Shown: piece after piece, positions 12,397 through 57,251 of the stretch
Numbering within the stretch: position 1 is the stretch's first letter
Layout: every line of letters begins with the position of its first letter
From: Candidatus Woesearchaeota archaeon
Lineage (GTDB): Archaea; Nanobdellota; Nanobdellia; Woesearchaeales; DSVV01
Assembly: GCA_016192995.1 (NCBI GenBank)
Contig: JACPTB010000010.1
Coordinates: forward strand, 1 to 58,873
Direction: 5' to 3'
DNA length: 58,873 nt
Program-made: the position numbers and the translations under genes
Notes under the pieces: generated by a model
What the model was told of the DNA's origin: nothing
Databases searched by the model: none
Seen by the model: the letters and a program-made list of their open reading frames with translations, nothing else

Positions 12397-12474
12397 GAAA
12401 TCACCTATTTTAAAATAATAATATATTATAGTATAGTTTCTTGACAAGGCGGTATATATATTTTGTGGAATATA

Positions 12475-12628
12475 GTGCGTAATAAGTCTTCTTAAGTTTT
12501 AGCGCCGGTTCAGCTTTTGAAGTTCATATCGATTGGATTTTTCTCTCTGGCACTCCGAAAAATCCCCATTGTAAAGATAGAAGAGCTTCACAAAATAGGC
12601 GCTAAAACCCCAGACTTATATTACGTAC
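12475..12628 (+). repeat. Fold-back repeat, copy 2, with exact 8-bp flanking duplication
   Basis: Type-1 arms: GTGCGTAATAAGTC on the left and GACTTATATTACGTAC on the right. Core stem GCGCC/GGCGC, apical hairpin GGATTTTTC/GAAAAATCC with loop TCTCTGGCACTCC. The eight bases on each side are identical: GGAATATA at 12467-12474 and 12629-12636. This is a clear sign of transposition-type insertion. Confidence 0.92.
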
Positions 12629-12655
12629 GGAATATATTAAAGAAAAACATAACAT

Positions 12656-12740
12656 TACTCCAACTCATACACCACATTCACATTAACCATAACGGTAACA
12701 TCCTGCGGATTAATGGTTGTTGGTTCTGCTGATGCTTCTG
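12656..12740 (-). pseudogene. Duplicated 3' end of the SIMPL-domain gene
   Basis: 12656-12729 is identical over 74 bases to 14101-14174, the last codons of the intact SIMPL gene. The reading frame continues a few codons further with a similar but not identical sequence (AEASAEP against AATAEP), then breaks off. There is no start, so this is a gene fragment. It and the real gene end flank the STAS-like/HATPase pair as direct repeats. Confidence 0.85.
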
Positions 12741-12761
12741 CACATATCTTCTCTAAACAAA

Positions 12762-13073
12762 TTACAAACTAACTGCTTTTATTCTTTTTATGTCAAGTAT
12801 CTGTATTTTATCTTGTGGTTCATTCACTATATCAAACATTTTTCTTACATTTTCAGGAACATTAATCTCACTGATATTCTGTTTCATTATTTTTTTCCTT
12901 GTTATATACTCATGCGCAAAAGAACGTGATATTGATTTTACACCTTTGAAATCTACAGAAATATATTTAGTAGATAACCTTGCAATTTCTTGAAAGAACT
13001 TTTTTGCAGATTCTCTCAGTGCTAAATCTACTGAAATCTTATCTTTGATAATAACTTTAGTTGAGGTGTTCAT
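12762..13073 (-). CDS. STAS-like (DUF4325-type) protein
   Basis: 103 aa. The pattern KKFFQEIARLSTKYISVDFKGV then SISRSFAHEYI fits the STAS-like DUF4325 family, in which SRSFADE-type residues follow a buried strand. Such proteins are usually paired with a GHKL ATPase, as here, and resemble the anti-sigma/anti-anti-sigma switch of bacteria. It starts 17 nt inside the end of the upstream HATPase gene, so the two are translationally linked. Confidence 0.65.
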   Translation of the reverse strand: MNTSTKVIIKDKISVDLALRESAKKFFQEIARLSTKYISVDFKGVKSISRSFAHEYITRKKIMKQNISEINVPENVRKMFDIVNEPQDKIQILDIKRIKAVSL

Positions 13074-13857
13074 ATAAATCCACTTTTGGAGCTGGTAATG
13101 GTATTCTAATGCTTATTAATGTACCTTCTAGTGTATATATCTGTTTAAGTATATATAATTTTTCTAAATTCTTCCCAATATATAAGGCTCCTGCCCTTGA
13201 AACAATTAGAACTTCTCCATTCATGCCCTTAGTGAATATGTCTAAATTAGTACTAAGTCCATATCCTCTGTCTTTACTTTTTGTTGAAAGACCATTAACA
13301 GCTCTTACTATGGCTTCATGATCATTAAAAATTAAACCAGCCTTTTGAAAACTACCTGGAATAGTTATGCCATCATCAAAAAAACAAATCTCTACAAAAC
13401 CTTTCTTATCATAACGTTGCGCCATAACTAAAGCATTATGAAATTCTGAATGTTGATAAATATTATCTACTAACTCACTCACTAAATACTTAAATACGTT
13501 TTCACCACCATATTCTTTGCCATTTTTGTGCAATTTAAAGATAAATTCTAAGATATCTATTACTTTTTCACGTTTATTAGGTAATTGAACACATGGTACA
13601 TAAGATTTATTTTCAAGTTCTTCAATCTTAATAACTCCTCTTACTAAACCCACGTAATTTGCTACATTATGGTTATAAGGCGGTAAATATTTCATCGTTT
13701 GATTTTTCTTTATGAAATCTCCTAATAGCAATAACGTTGTTGGGAAAAGCCAACTGCATGAGCTTAAATCAATTACTTTAGTAGAAGTAGCACGTTCCCT
13801 ATAATTGCAAAACGTAAGATAATTGTTCACTAAATCAGGTACTTGAAGTTCAGGCAT
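13057..13857 (-). CDS. GHKL (HATPase) regulator with N-terminal STAS-like region
   Basis: 266 aa. Residues about 20-50 (STKVIDLSSCSWLFPTTLLLLGDF) resemble a STAS-like strand and helix. Residues about 125-255 are a GHKL ATPase: N-box YLVSELVDNIYQHSE, G1 box FFDDGITIPG, and a later KDRGYGLS glycine box. It is probably a Ser/Thr kinase of the anti-sigma type or a related switch, acting on the downstream STAS-like protein. No sigma factor exists in archaea, so the final target is unknown. Confidence 0.7.
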   Translation of the reverse strand: MPELQVPDLVNNYLTFCNYRERATSTKVIDLSSCSWLFPTTLLLLGDFIKKNQTMKYLPPYNHNVANYVGLVRGVIKIEELENKSYVPCVQLPNKREKVIDILEFIFKLHKNGKEYGGENVFKYLVSELVDNIYQHSEFHNALVMAQRYDKKGFVEICFFDDGITIPGSFQKAGLIFNDHEAIVRAVNGLSTKSKDRGYGLSTNLDIFTKGMNGEVLIVSRAGALYIGKNLEKLYILKQIYTLEGTLISIRIPLPAPKVDLYEHLN

Positions 13858-13902
13858 ACTAAGTTACTGAATTTTCTTATTTAAGAATATTTCTGAATTG
13901 AA

Positions 13903-14064
13903 GGCTCTATAGAAAATCTCGGCATAGCCTCGGTTTTGGTGCCGTGATTATCTCACTTGTTTACAATAAGGAAAAAATTCCTACTGGAACTTCCTTTTTT
14001 CCCACGTACTAATTTGAAGGATAATCACCAGCATGGCACCAAAAACTACATTTTCTACAGAGCC
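13903..14064 (+). repeat. Fold-back repeat, class C copy 1, with exact 9-bp flanking duplication
   Basis: Outer arms GGCTCTATAGAAAAT and ATTTTCTACAGAGCC. Core stems GGTGCC/GGCACC and GTGATTATC/GATAATCAC, with a six-base bulge on one strand. The apical hairpin is GGAAAAAA/TTTTTTCC, whose loop on the minus strand contains GGAAGTTCCAGTAGG. The nine bases TGAATTGAA occur at 13894-13902 and again at 14065-14073. Confidence 0.92.
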
Positions 14065-14099
14065 TGAATTGAATTAAAAAAATAAAAGATCAGTTGGAT

Positions 14100-14873
14100 T
14101 TACTCCAACTCATACACCACATTCACATTAACCATAACGGTAACATCCTGCGGATTAATGGTTGTTGGTTCTGCAGTTGCTGCCATCTCTGCAACAGCAT
14201 ATTTTCGATAGTCATTATAATATACTGGTGTATATCCTGTTGATTGCCCTAAAGAAAGCACTTTTCCCAGATTCATGCCTGCAGCTTCTGCTAGTGTTTG
14301 TGCCCGAGCTTTAGCATCTTTGGTTGCTTCTGCTAATAACTGCAATTCAACTTCTTTCTGCTTTTTATCTGATAATTTGAATTGGATATTATCAACATTA
14401 TTAGCTCCTGCTTTTATGGCAGTATCAAGCACTTTCCCTACAAGCTCAATATCATTGGTAGTAACGACAAGGCGATGGCTTACTTGATAGCCATTATCAA
14501 TGTATTTTTTGGTTTCATAATCCCACTGGCGATCTTGATAGATATTATAATTATCTGTCTGCAAGTTTTTGTCTTTTAAGCCCAATGATTTTAAGTTATT
14601 AATTACCACATTCATCTTTTCTTTGTTTTGCGTTTGCGCTTCAACAACATCTTTATGTTTGGTTTGCACACTAATATAAACAACTGCCTCATCAGGCGCT
14701 TCTTTAGATTCTGCTTTTCCAGCCATATTAATAGTAGAAGTATCTGAAGTTACACCATTACTATTAACGACTGACGGAGTTTTAGTGTACGCCAATATAC
14801 CTAATACCAAAATACCTATCGTTAAAAGCACTACAATCCATTTAATACCAGATTCTTTATTTGTTTCAGTCAT
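14100..14873 (-). CDS. SIMPL-domain (DUF541) protein with N-terminal membrane anchor
   Basis: 257 aa from the ATG at 14873. AGGAGG lies ten bases upstream; the in-frame TTG at 14882 is too close to that site. One membrane segment at about 12-30 is followed by a SIMPL domain (GKAESKEAPDEAVVYISVQT, LKSLGLKDKNLQTDNYNIY, NGYQVSHRLVVTTNDIE, ATKDAKARAQTLAEAAG). SIMPL/DUF541 proteins are periplasmic or surface proteins whose biochemical role is mostly unknown. The final 74 bases are repeated exactly at 12656. Confidence 0.85.
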   Translation of the reverse strand: MTETNKESGIKWIVVLLTIGILVLGILAYTKTPSVVNSNGVTSDTSTINMAGKAESKEAPDEAVVYISVQTKHKDVVEAQTQNKEKMNVVINNLKSLGLKDKNLQTDNYNIYQDRQWDYETKKYIDNGYQVSHRLVVTTNDIELVGKVLDTAIKAGANNVDNIQFKLSDKKQKEVELQLLAEATKDAKARAQTLAEAAGMNLGKVLSLGQSTGYTPVYYNDYRKYAVAEMAATAEPTTINPQDVTVMVNVNVVYELE

Positions 14874-14993
14874 AATGATCAATCCTCCTAGGCTTATAGA
14901 AAGATGTTCATTTATATAAATACTGTTTAGACTCTAGATGGAATTAAAGTTATCGCCACAATATTTAAAAACATACACTTTTTTTCCCAGACT

Positions 14994-16230: not shown

Positions 16231-17100
16231 ATGGATAAAAATAATGCTTTAGTAGTTTTTCAAGATAAGAAAATACGAAGGATTTGGTATAATGAAGAAT
16301 GGTATTTTTCAGTAATAGATGTTATAGCTGCATTAGAAGCTAGTACTGTACCTAAAAGATATTGGTCTGACTTAAAAACAAAGCTTTCTACTGAAGGTTT
16401 TGAACCGTACGATAATATCGTACAGTTGAAATTACTTGCAGAAGACGGTAAATTAAGAGAGACAGACTGTGCAAATACTAAGAATATGTTCAGAGTCATT
16501 CAATCAATTCCATCTCTTAAAGCAGAACCATTCAAACAATGGTTGGCACAAGTAGGTTATGAACGAGTTCAAGAAATAGAGGATCCAGAGCTTACTCAAA
16601 AAAGAATGAAAGAACTGTATAGGTTAAAAGGATATTCTGATGATTGGATTGAGAAAAGAGTTAGAGGAATTGCTATAAGGCAGGAATTAACTGATGAATG
16701 GAAAAAACGCGGTGTTGAAGAAAGTAGGGAATTTGCCATCTTAACCAATGAAATCAGTAAAGCAACATTTGGCAAAACAGTTGAGGAGTATAAACAATTC
16801 AAAGGATTAAATAAAGGAAATTTACGCGATCACATGAATGATTTAGAATTAATATTTACTATGCTTGGAGAAAGGGTAACTACTGAGATTACTAAAACAG
16901 AAGATACACCTGGATTTAATAAATGTAAAAATGCCAGCCAAAGAGGCGGAAAAGTAGCAGGCAATGCACGAAAAGAAACTGAAAAAGAGTTAAGACGTTC
17001 AATTGTATCTGATGAAAATTATATCTCTGAGTCTGAAAACAAGAAGAAGCTGTTGGTAAAAAATGAAAAGAGTAAGAAGCAAGACAATGCCTCATTGTGA
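16231..17100 (+). CDS. BRO-N / DinD-like phage antirepressor-type protein
   Basis: 289 aa. The N-terminal domain (residues 5-115) fits BRO-N: KKIRRIWYNEEWYFSVIDV, KRYWSDLKTKL, then TDCANTKNMFRVIQSIPS and EPFKQWLAQVGYERVQE. The C-terminal half resembles DinD-like proteins (QKRMKELYRLKGYSDDWIEKR, REFAILTNEISKATFGKTVEEYK). Such proteins are common in viruses and mobile islands. A TATA-like box (GGATATATAAAGG) precedes the ATG by about 28 nt. It suggests a past viral or mobile contribution to this region. Confidence 0.8.
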   Translation: MDKNNALVVFQDKKIRRIWYNEEWYFSVIDVIAALEASTVPKRYWSDLKTKLSTEGFEPYDNIVQLKLLAEDGKLRETDCANTKNMFRVIQSIPSLKAEPFKQWLAQVGYERVQEIEDPELTQKRMKELYRLKGYSDDWIEKRVRGIAIRQELTDEWKKRGVEESREFAILTNEISKATFGKTVEEYKQFKGLNKGNLRDHMNDLELIFTMLGERVTTEITKTEDTPGFNKCKNASQRGGKVAGNARKETEKELRRSIVSDENYISESENKKKLLVKNEKSKKQDNASL

Positions 17101-25258: not shown

Positions 25259-25900
25259 TTAGGTAGTAGTTATAAAAGTTGTTGCCAACAATCTATTGTT
25301 TATACTATCAGGTGTGATACCATACTGCTTTAATCTTCTTCGAAAGTTAGACCTATCATCTCCAATTTTTCGAGCTGCTGAAGAAATGCATCCACCAGTG
25401 GCAGTCATAAGTAACTTTAGATACTGTGCCTCAATAACATGAGCAACATGTTCACGATGATAATAAACTCCACCTCTTTCCAGCATTTGAATTGGCACTC
25501 CTTCATCAGAAGGAGCAGGTTCAGAAAGCAACCGATCCATATCTAAACCATACTGCTTTAATCTTCTTCGAAAGTTAGACCTATCGTCAGCTGTATACCG
25601 TGCAGCATTACTCATAGTTGCTACACCATATCTTCTTCTAACTTCCAACAAATATGAAGCGTAAAATTTTCTCATTTCCGCCTCTGTGATACGCTTCCTT
25701 ATTTGATCATAAGGTTGTTTTTCGTCAAAAGCATTCTTAACTTCAGTTGCTATTCTTTGTTCTAAACGAGCATGAAATTGAATTTCAATACCAGAATGTA
25801 AACCAGGTTCTTGTTGATTATCCATTGTTTTTACCTCATCAATTACAATAGGTGGTGCTAAAGTCGTTAATTTATAAAATGTATTAATTTTCCTTATCAT
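25259..25900 (-). CDS. Double Fis-type helix-turn-helix protein
   Basis: 213 aa. Two copies of a Fis/NtrC-type C-terminal helix-turn-helix are seen at about 84-118 and 158-194, each ending in DDRSNFRRRLKQYG. A 37-base stretch of this motif is repeated exactly at 25321-25357 and 25549-25585. The N-terminal 80 residues are not recognised. Single chains with two Fis motifs could bind DNA as a built-in dimer. The ATG overlaps the stop of a truncated RelE-like frame; an internal Met (26) is an alternative start. Confidence 0.7.
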   Translation of the reverse strand: MIRKINTFYKLTTLAPPIVIDEVKTMDNQQEPGLHSGIEIQFHARLEQRIATEVKNAFDEKQPYDQIRKRITEAEMRKFYASYLLEVRRRYGVATMSNAARYTADDRSNFRRRLKQYGLDMDRLLSEPAPSDEGVPIQMLERGGVYYHREHVAHVIEAQYLKLLMTATGGCISSAARKIGDDRSNFRRRLKQYGITPDSINNRLLATTFITTT

Positions 25901-42032: not shown

Positions 42033-42194
42033 GGCTTCGGTGAAAATGTAGTTTTTGGTGCCATGCTGGTGATTATCCTTCAAATTAGTACGTGGGAAAA
42101 AAGGAAGTTCCAGTAGGAATTTTTTCCTTATTATACATAAGTAAGATAATCACGGCACCAAAACCGAGGCTATGCCGAGATTTTCACCGAAGCC
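42033..42194 (-). repeat. Fold-back repeat, class C copy 2, with exact 9-bp flanking duplication
   Basis: Arms GGCTTCGGTGAAAAT and ATTTTCACCGAAGCC. Core GGTGCC/GGCACC plus GTGATTATC/GATAATCAC, apical GGAAAAAA/TTTTTTCC with GGAAGTTCCAGTAGG in the loop. It is the same element as 13903 in opposite orientation. Flanks CCTAAAAAC at 42024-42032 and 42195-42203 are identical. It lies between two convergent genes. Confidence 0.93.
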
Positions 42195-49420: not shown

Positions 49421-49636
49421 GGCTCTGGTGAAAATCTTTCAGGTTTTAGCGCCGGTTCAGCTTTTTAAGTGGATTTCGATTGGATTTTTCTCTCTGGCAC
49501 TCCGAAAAATCCCCAAAATAAAGTTAAGAAGAGCTTCACGAAATAGGCGCTAAAACTATACGAATCAAAGAAAGATTGAATAATATTTGACTTTCTTTGA
49601 TGGTATATTGCTACGCAATACATTTTCACCAGAGCC
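49421..49636 (+). repeat. Fold-back repeat, copy 6 (type-2 arms, type-1 core)
   Basis: Outer arms GGCTCTGGTGAAAAT and ATTTTCACCAGAGCC (type 2) enclose the type-1 core GCGCC/GGCGC with AGCT/AGCT. Apical loop TCTCTGGCACTCC. The right arm has the same two extra hairpins as copy 3. Flanks are GGTTATTTA (49412-49420) and GATTATTTA (49637-49645), eight of nine identical. Confidence 0.9.
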
Positions 49637-57097: not shown

Positions 57098-57251
57098 GTA
57101 CGTAATAAGTCTTCTATGGTTTTAGCGCCGGTTCAGCTTTTGAAGTGGATTTCGATTGGATTTTTCTCTCTGGAACCTCGAAAAATCCTCACAGTGAAAT
57201 TAAGAAAAGCTTCACAAAAGCAGGCGCTAAAACTACAGACTTATTACGTAC
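57098..57251 (+). repeat. Fold-back repeat, copy 8, with exact 8-bp flanking duplication
   Basis: Arms GTACGTAATAAGTC and GACTTATTACGTAC, core GCGCC/GGCGC, apical GGATTTTTC/GAAAAATCC with loop TCTCTGGAACCTC. Both flanks read CTTTGAGA (57090-57097 and 57252-57259). It is the cleanest copy of the type-1 form. Confidence 0.94.

Follow-up and report, generated by a model that had tools for sequence, protein, structure and literature searches.

A kinase-STAS gene pair between two copies of a SIMPL gene end: a candidate gene-end cassette in Woesearchaeota

Why do the last codons of a complete gene occur a second time, on the far side of two other genes? The question is raised by a 58,873-nt stretch of DNA from a Candidatus Woesearchaeota archaeon (contig JACPTB010000010.1, GCA_016192995.1), referred to here as the window.

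The SIMPL gene end and its K-S cargo

Comparison of the window with itself reveals a 75-bp exact direct repeat (12655-12729 = 14100-14174), the copies lying 1445 bp apart, start to start. An exact repeat of the SIMPL gene end had been predicted with a length of 74 bp; it is present, and one base longer. The repeat comprises the final 75 nt of the SIMPL ORF 14100-14882 on the minus strand, including the stop codon, and the identity ends at the base after the stop. Extension to 12736/14181 gives 80 of 82 matches, and at the protein level the match continues as ASAEPTT versus ATAEPTT. Read in the SIMPL frame, the spacer 12730..12761 places A-E-A-S-A, a weakly SIMPL-like string, right before the orphan copy. 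Apart from MITE sequence, this is the sole long direct repeat at such a scale in the window, and the SIMPL gene end occurs only twice in the 1.6-Mb genome. The expectation of an exact repeat of this length arising by chance in 58.9 kb is ~1e-33. The features of the locus are as follows.

14100..14882, minus strand: SIMPL (DUF541), the putatively rebuilt host gene; PF04402, E=7.6e-50; last 75 nt duplicated
14100..14174, minus strand: functional 3'-end copy (attL-like), joined to SIMPL; exact 75-bp repeat
13902..14064 (163 bp), no strand: MITE of family B, inside the unit, upstream of the K TATA box; genome-wide family, TIR/TSD alignment
13057..13857, minus strand: K, 266 aa, STAS-like N-terminal region and GHKL kinase (CapK/VapK-like); HATPase_c 9.6e-5, motifs
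12762..13073, minus strand: S, single STAS-like protein, 103 aa; PF14213 (DUF4325) 2.5e-7; 17-nt overlap with K
12730..12761, minus strand: 32-bp spacer from the S stop to the orphan gene-end copy, seen in the sequence
12655..12729, minus strand: orphan copy of the SIMPL 3' end (attR-like) with the same stop codon; exact repeat, two genome copies
12475..12628 (154 bp), no strand: MITE of family A, just outside the orphan copy; genome-wide family, TIR/TSD alignment

The K and S genes and one MITE are located between the copies; these two are the only genes of the unit, and no integrase is found in it. The predicted STAS-like/HATPase two-gene module is borne out by the PF14213 match of S and the GHKL boxes of K. 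The score of K against Pfam HATPase_c is 23.2 bits, slightly under the 26.4-bit cut-off. Its N, G1 and G2 boxes are intact (motifs ELVDNIYQHS, DDGITIP and GLSTKSKDRGYGL), and the GHKL residues E128, N132, D161, G163, G189, R197, G198 and G200 are invariant among seven homologues. In S, the SRSxAxE motif is invariant, with S49 and S51 conserved in all eight homologues. Among solved proteins, Escherichia VapS (9z7o, E=0.0027) is the sole plausible match to the S profile, and the profile alignment stops at VapS S48. Single-sequence AlphaFold models were uninformative (pLDDT 48 and 34).

STAS-GHKL kinase genes followed by a gene for a STAS substrate are known from two systems. In CapK/CapS, a kinase activated by ssDNA phosphorylates a STAS protein that represses immune operons, and in VapK/VapS/VapC the STAS protein holds a toxin (PMC13373217). 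The K-S pair shares this gene order. Unlike CapK/CapS, it lacks the winged HTH of CapS and the N-terminal HTH of the kinase: no HTH was matched in K and no wHTH on S, which has a single STAS-like match. Unlike VapKSC, it has no VapC/PIN gene after S; the orphan gene-end copy follows 32 bp downstream. PADLOC and NCBIfam searches returned no clear system for K or S, with a DrmA match to K of only 17 bits, and Rfam gave no match. By analogy with the two known systems, K may be a CapK/VapK-like serine kinase that phosphorylates S upon DNA damage or phage stress. Phosphorylated S would then release whatever it holds, and its partner would be encoded outside the cassette.

A second, distant K-S pair is present in the same genome (G000:C1 24249-25597; L094:6250-7598) and has no gene-end copies. 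The K genes of several relatives (L112, L114, L117) contain in-frame TAA stops, suggesting that the pair is often decaying. A Bro-N/DinD-like protein encoded near the cassette (window 16231-17100) matches PDC-S13, a PADLOC candidate, very strongly.

K-S pairs at two other gene ends

A clear K homologue is found in 9 of 353 genomes of the order, a patchy distribution. We compared the 1 kb upstream with the 1 kb downstream of 18 K-S loci against shuffled controls, and in a second pass, at the protein level, compared gene C-termini with the flank on the other side. Three of the 18 loci are enclosed by copies of the 3' end of an adjacent gene: the window, L105 and L103, the latter two from the same archaeal order. 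No gene-end copies were detected at the remaining 15. The nucleotide score is 87 at L105 (shuffle maximum 31) and 48 at L103 (shuffle maximum 27), and the corresponding protein-level values are 89 versus 18 and 46 versus 19.

At L105, in genome G343, the last 59 nt of a gene for a 273-aa DUF483-like protein are repeated past S, and this gene end was found in two places. The copies differ at 8 of 60 nt. Seven of the eight differences are synonymous, where 24% would be expected (P=3e-4), and two of them make a TGA/TAG stop swap. The mostly synonymous pattern indicates that each copy had been a functional gene end in its own lineage before the two were brought together. An empty site is available in G344, a genome of the same genus, in which the target gene is 80% identical and neither K-S nor a second copy is present. 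In G344 a convergent cyclase gene lies 3 bp after the DUF483-like stop. In G343, but not in G344, one more ORF separates the far copy from the cyclase gene, so the difference between the two sites exceeds the cassette alone.

At L103, in G322, the module is convergent with the Top6A gene, and ~33 nt of the Top6A end are repeated beyond K. Past this first copy, an unrelated second two-gene operon is followed by a third copy of the gene end.

L103:7989-9517 (G322): second Top6A cassette; a 179-aa protein with a weak DUF6036 (nucleotidyltransferase) match and a 235-aa protein with no match

The second cargo is perhaps a toxin-antitoxin-like pair. The three tails around the two cassettes read EKIKNQEFID*, EQMKNQEFID* and EKRKNEEFID*, a variation comparable to that among Top6A orthologues. 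In both cassettes the last cargo gene stops 3-11 nt from a Top6A stop codon. Five genomes (G329, G326, G324, G011 and G327) provide empty Top6A sites, with one gene end, no K-S and Top6A 75-87% identical.

Two further features of L103 were considered. A 40-bp motif beside the Top6A gene-end copies (GTCCAGTGC..TTTTCCGACGAGAACGGAAG, L103:7905-7950) was tried as an attP arm and rejected, as further copies lie upstream of TATA boxes in other parts of G322. It is also present at L212, L213, L216, L217, L219 and L220 and adjoins TATA boxes; one copy lies beside a K gene and one near a XerC/D-like recombinase gene. The motif resembles an operator common to these sites. On the strand opposite K, a 170-aa open frame (L103:7476-7988) continues in frame into the copied Top6A tail, which is probably a GC-rich coincidence.

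No general habit of gene-end duplication was seen in 400 kb of the window genome or in 257 kb of G322. A scan of gene ends over ~1.2 Mb (551 + 665 ORFs) found no comparable duplication outside K-S loci, and the leftover background hits were weak or represented paralogues, MITE sequence or internal repeats. We left the window out of the enrichment test because it had been selected for its repeat. The other loci give 2 of ~16 against 0 of ~1,200 ORFs, a chance of ~2e-4 that rests on small numbers because two of the three loci came from scanning K-S loci. The unit lengths are 1207, 1340, 1275 (without MITE) and 1529 bp, the window unit measuring ~1.28 kb without its MITE. A few K-S matches were obtained on plasmids and phages as possible carriers, none of them with gene-end copies, and scans of viral contigs and genome contigs found no relatives.

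Possible routes of entry into gene ends

Taken together, the repeats, the three independent loci, the coding conservation of both copies, the tandem array and the empty sites for two of the three loci favor a mobile unit. We consider it probable, at roughly 60%, that K-S travels as cargo in a tiny mobile cassette, one that is non-autonomous and inserts at gene 3' ends with exchange of the gene end. As read from the DNA, such insertion has taken place at three unrelated genes, with stacking at one of them.

The cassette, ~1.2-1.3 kb without the MITE, would carry a host-gene end of its own, the last 30-75 nt including the stop codon. Entry would occur by recombination of this copy with the matching 3' end of the gene on the chromosome. 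That gene would remain complete, as the cassette copy would become its new end and the original end would be displaced to the far side of the cassette. Separate cassette lineages would use separate genes (SIMPL, the DUF483-like gene and Top6A), and a further cassette carrying different cargo could stack at one site. The exchange is probably performed by a tyrosine recombinase supplied in trans, and a circular form of the cassette is expected to exist.

Integration at the SIMPL 3' end with rebuilding of the gene, as originally predicted, is well supported by analogy: the same pair is found at two other gene ends with empty sites. For SIMPL itself, the relatives compared are at most 41% identical, and none of the neighborhoods examined has K-S beside SIMPL. 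The term island, which was used for the insert, overstates a two-gene unit. That the event is recent is reasonable for the window, where the copies are identical, compared with 8 of 60 nt differing at the DUF483-like locus. The identity points to an event that is younger or took place within a species. A look for an integrase elsewhere had also been proposed. Tyrosine recombinases are present in all three genomes, none of them tied to these gene ends, and no recombinase was found in or beside any cassette.

The main rival is ordinary homologous recombination, to which we assign a much smaller though real share of the probability. Here, circular or linear DNA carrying K-S and the gene end of a relative would enter by a single crossover within 30-75 nt, with no dedicated recombinase. 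The product would be identical to that of a cassette, the unit contains no recombinase, and the donor ends differ synonymously, as DNA from a relative should. However, three unrelated loci and a stacked cassette all use just the last 33-75 nt, whereas free homology should also give longer duplications and internal positions, and ~33 nt is a short homology. The differences between copies at L105 and L103, synonymous or resembling those among orthologues, fit a gene end that moved between lineages rather than duplication followed by drift.

It is also conceivable, though unlikely, that the unit is the remnant of a larger integrative element, an integrase-bearing island at a gene end from which all but K-S was deleted. 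Loss of the integrase after integration has been reported for archaeal elements (PMC8371274), and a K-S pair with a PIN-type effector travels as an insert in the prophage psiM100. Such an origin would require that three independent loci were reduced to the same two genes, with short spacers to both gene ends, and the second cassette at Top6A is just as compact.

A long target-site duplication, in which transposition or break repair duplicated the 75-bp target, would account for the identical copies in the window and is very improbable. No terminal inverted repeats were found in the sequence at the unit ends (12730 and 14099), which sets the unit apart from a transposon or MITE with a short, fixed TSD. 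The gene-end repeats also differ in length across the three loci (33-75 nt), unlike a fixed TSD, and the synonymous differences at L105 and L103 indicate that those copies derive from distinct functional genes.

Partial tandem duplication of SIMPL, with later insertion or replacement between the copies, was named in the original prediction as the outcome that would overturn integration. It is formally consistent with the window alone, but we find it hardly credible. Among 60 relatives searched, the 18 that bear SIMPL show no tandem arrangement and have a single copy each, except for one genome with a second, weak SIMPL match on another contig. The same series of events would also have had to occur independently at two other genes, each time with this cargo. 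Least credible of all is a metagenome assembly artefact in which two strain variants were joined at a 75-bp overlap: the genome is apparently a 16-contig draft and 75 bp is close to assembler k-mer sizes, but two unrelated assemblies show the same architecture, with copies that have diverged and are not identical.

Known elements and the MITEs around the unit

CIMEs and satellite islands consist of DNA that is flanked by att sites, lacks an integrase and has accreted at the 3' end of a gene; CIMEs occur together with a related autonomous ICE at that site. The cassettes described here are likewise flanked by att-like repeats at a gene 3' end and lack an integrase. Unlike CIMEs, they have no autonomous relative that we could find; in particular, no autonomous element sharing the SIMPL or DUF483-like gene end was detected.

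A survey of Thaumarchaeota has already established that elements integrate at the 3'-distal ends of protein genes, supply a new gene end and form tandem arrays (PMC6563490). In that survey, 14 of 68 mapped elements use protein genes, and sizes range from 2.6 to 140 kb, with the smallest, at 2.6 kb, encoding an integrase. The units described here share with these elements the direct repeats of a gene 3' end, the re-ended host gene and the tandem array, but they span only 1.2-1.5 kb, hold two cargo genes and lack an integrase. The novelty lies in the recurrence of an integrase-less unit of ~1.2-1.5 kb, with only two cargo genes, at gene ends that differ between lineages. Archaeal integron cassettes (PMC9668308) resemble the present units in having one or two genes, in stacking and in lacking a recombinase of their own. 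They differ in their boundary, which here is a host-gene end that varies by locus, with no folded attC. We found no integron platform.

The inserted fragment IFa of psiM100 (AF301375; L118:5694-8619), long unexplained, contains homologous K (38%) and S genes and encodes a VapKSC-like operon of K, S and the PIN-like PDC-M11A. The third gene is matched by PADLOC as PDC-M11A and has a PIN-like N-terminus. The insert is missing from phage psiM2, which shows that K-S pairs travel. Unlike the window unit, IFa has this third gene and no gene-end repeats, and its edge lies in 125-bp tandem repeats.

If the cassette reading is true, defense or stress gene pairs move between archaea as units that barely exceed two genes, leaving the entered genes undamaged and avoiding the cost of an integrase. 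Such mobility would account for the patchy distribution of kinase-STAS pairs. It would also provide a simple sequence test for further cassettes, namely the last codons of a gene repeated past a two-gene operon, and raise the question of which recombinase acts on the Top6A, SIMPL and DUF483-like gene ends. More tentatively, these archaea may harbor a whole class of gene-end cassettes without integrases. These would be two-gene operons, of a stress or toxin-antitoxin-like kind, with spare C-terminal codons of a conserved gene, shuttled by a trans-acting recombinase into unrelated conserved gene ends and stacking in an integron-like manner.

The palindromes beside the repeat were considered as attC-like sites and rejected, as they belong to two MITE families with 8-bp TSDs. 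The TSD of the family B copy is TGAATTGA (13894-13901 and 14065-14072), and that of the family A copy is GGAATATA (12467-12474 and 12629-12636). The terminal inverted repeats are GTACGTAATAAGTC in family A and GGCTCTGTAGAAAATC in family B. Each family counts at least 40 scored copies, with 159-195 candidates across the 1.6 Mb, many of the copies lying right upstream of archaeal TATA boxes. Both MITEs are later insertions, and neither is the cause of the 75-bp repeat. Hybrids with B ends and an A core exist, as do nested copies, and further MITE positions in the window include 49443-49556, 57108-57251, 524-667 and 42042-42185. A 39-bp exact direct repeat is located elsewhere in the window (25319-25357 and 25547-25585, 228 bp apart), within the ORF 25259-25900 on the minus strand.
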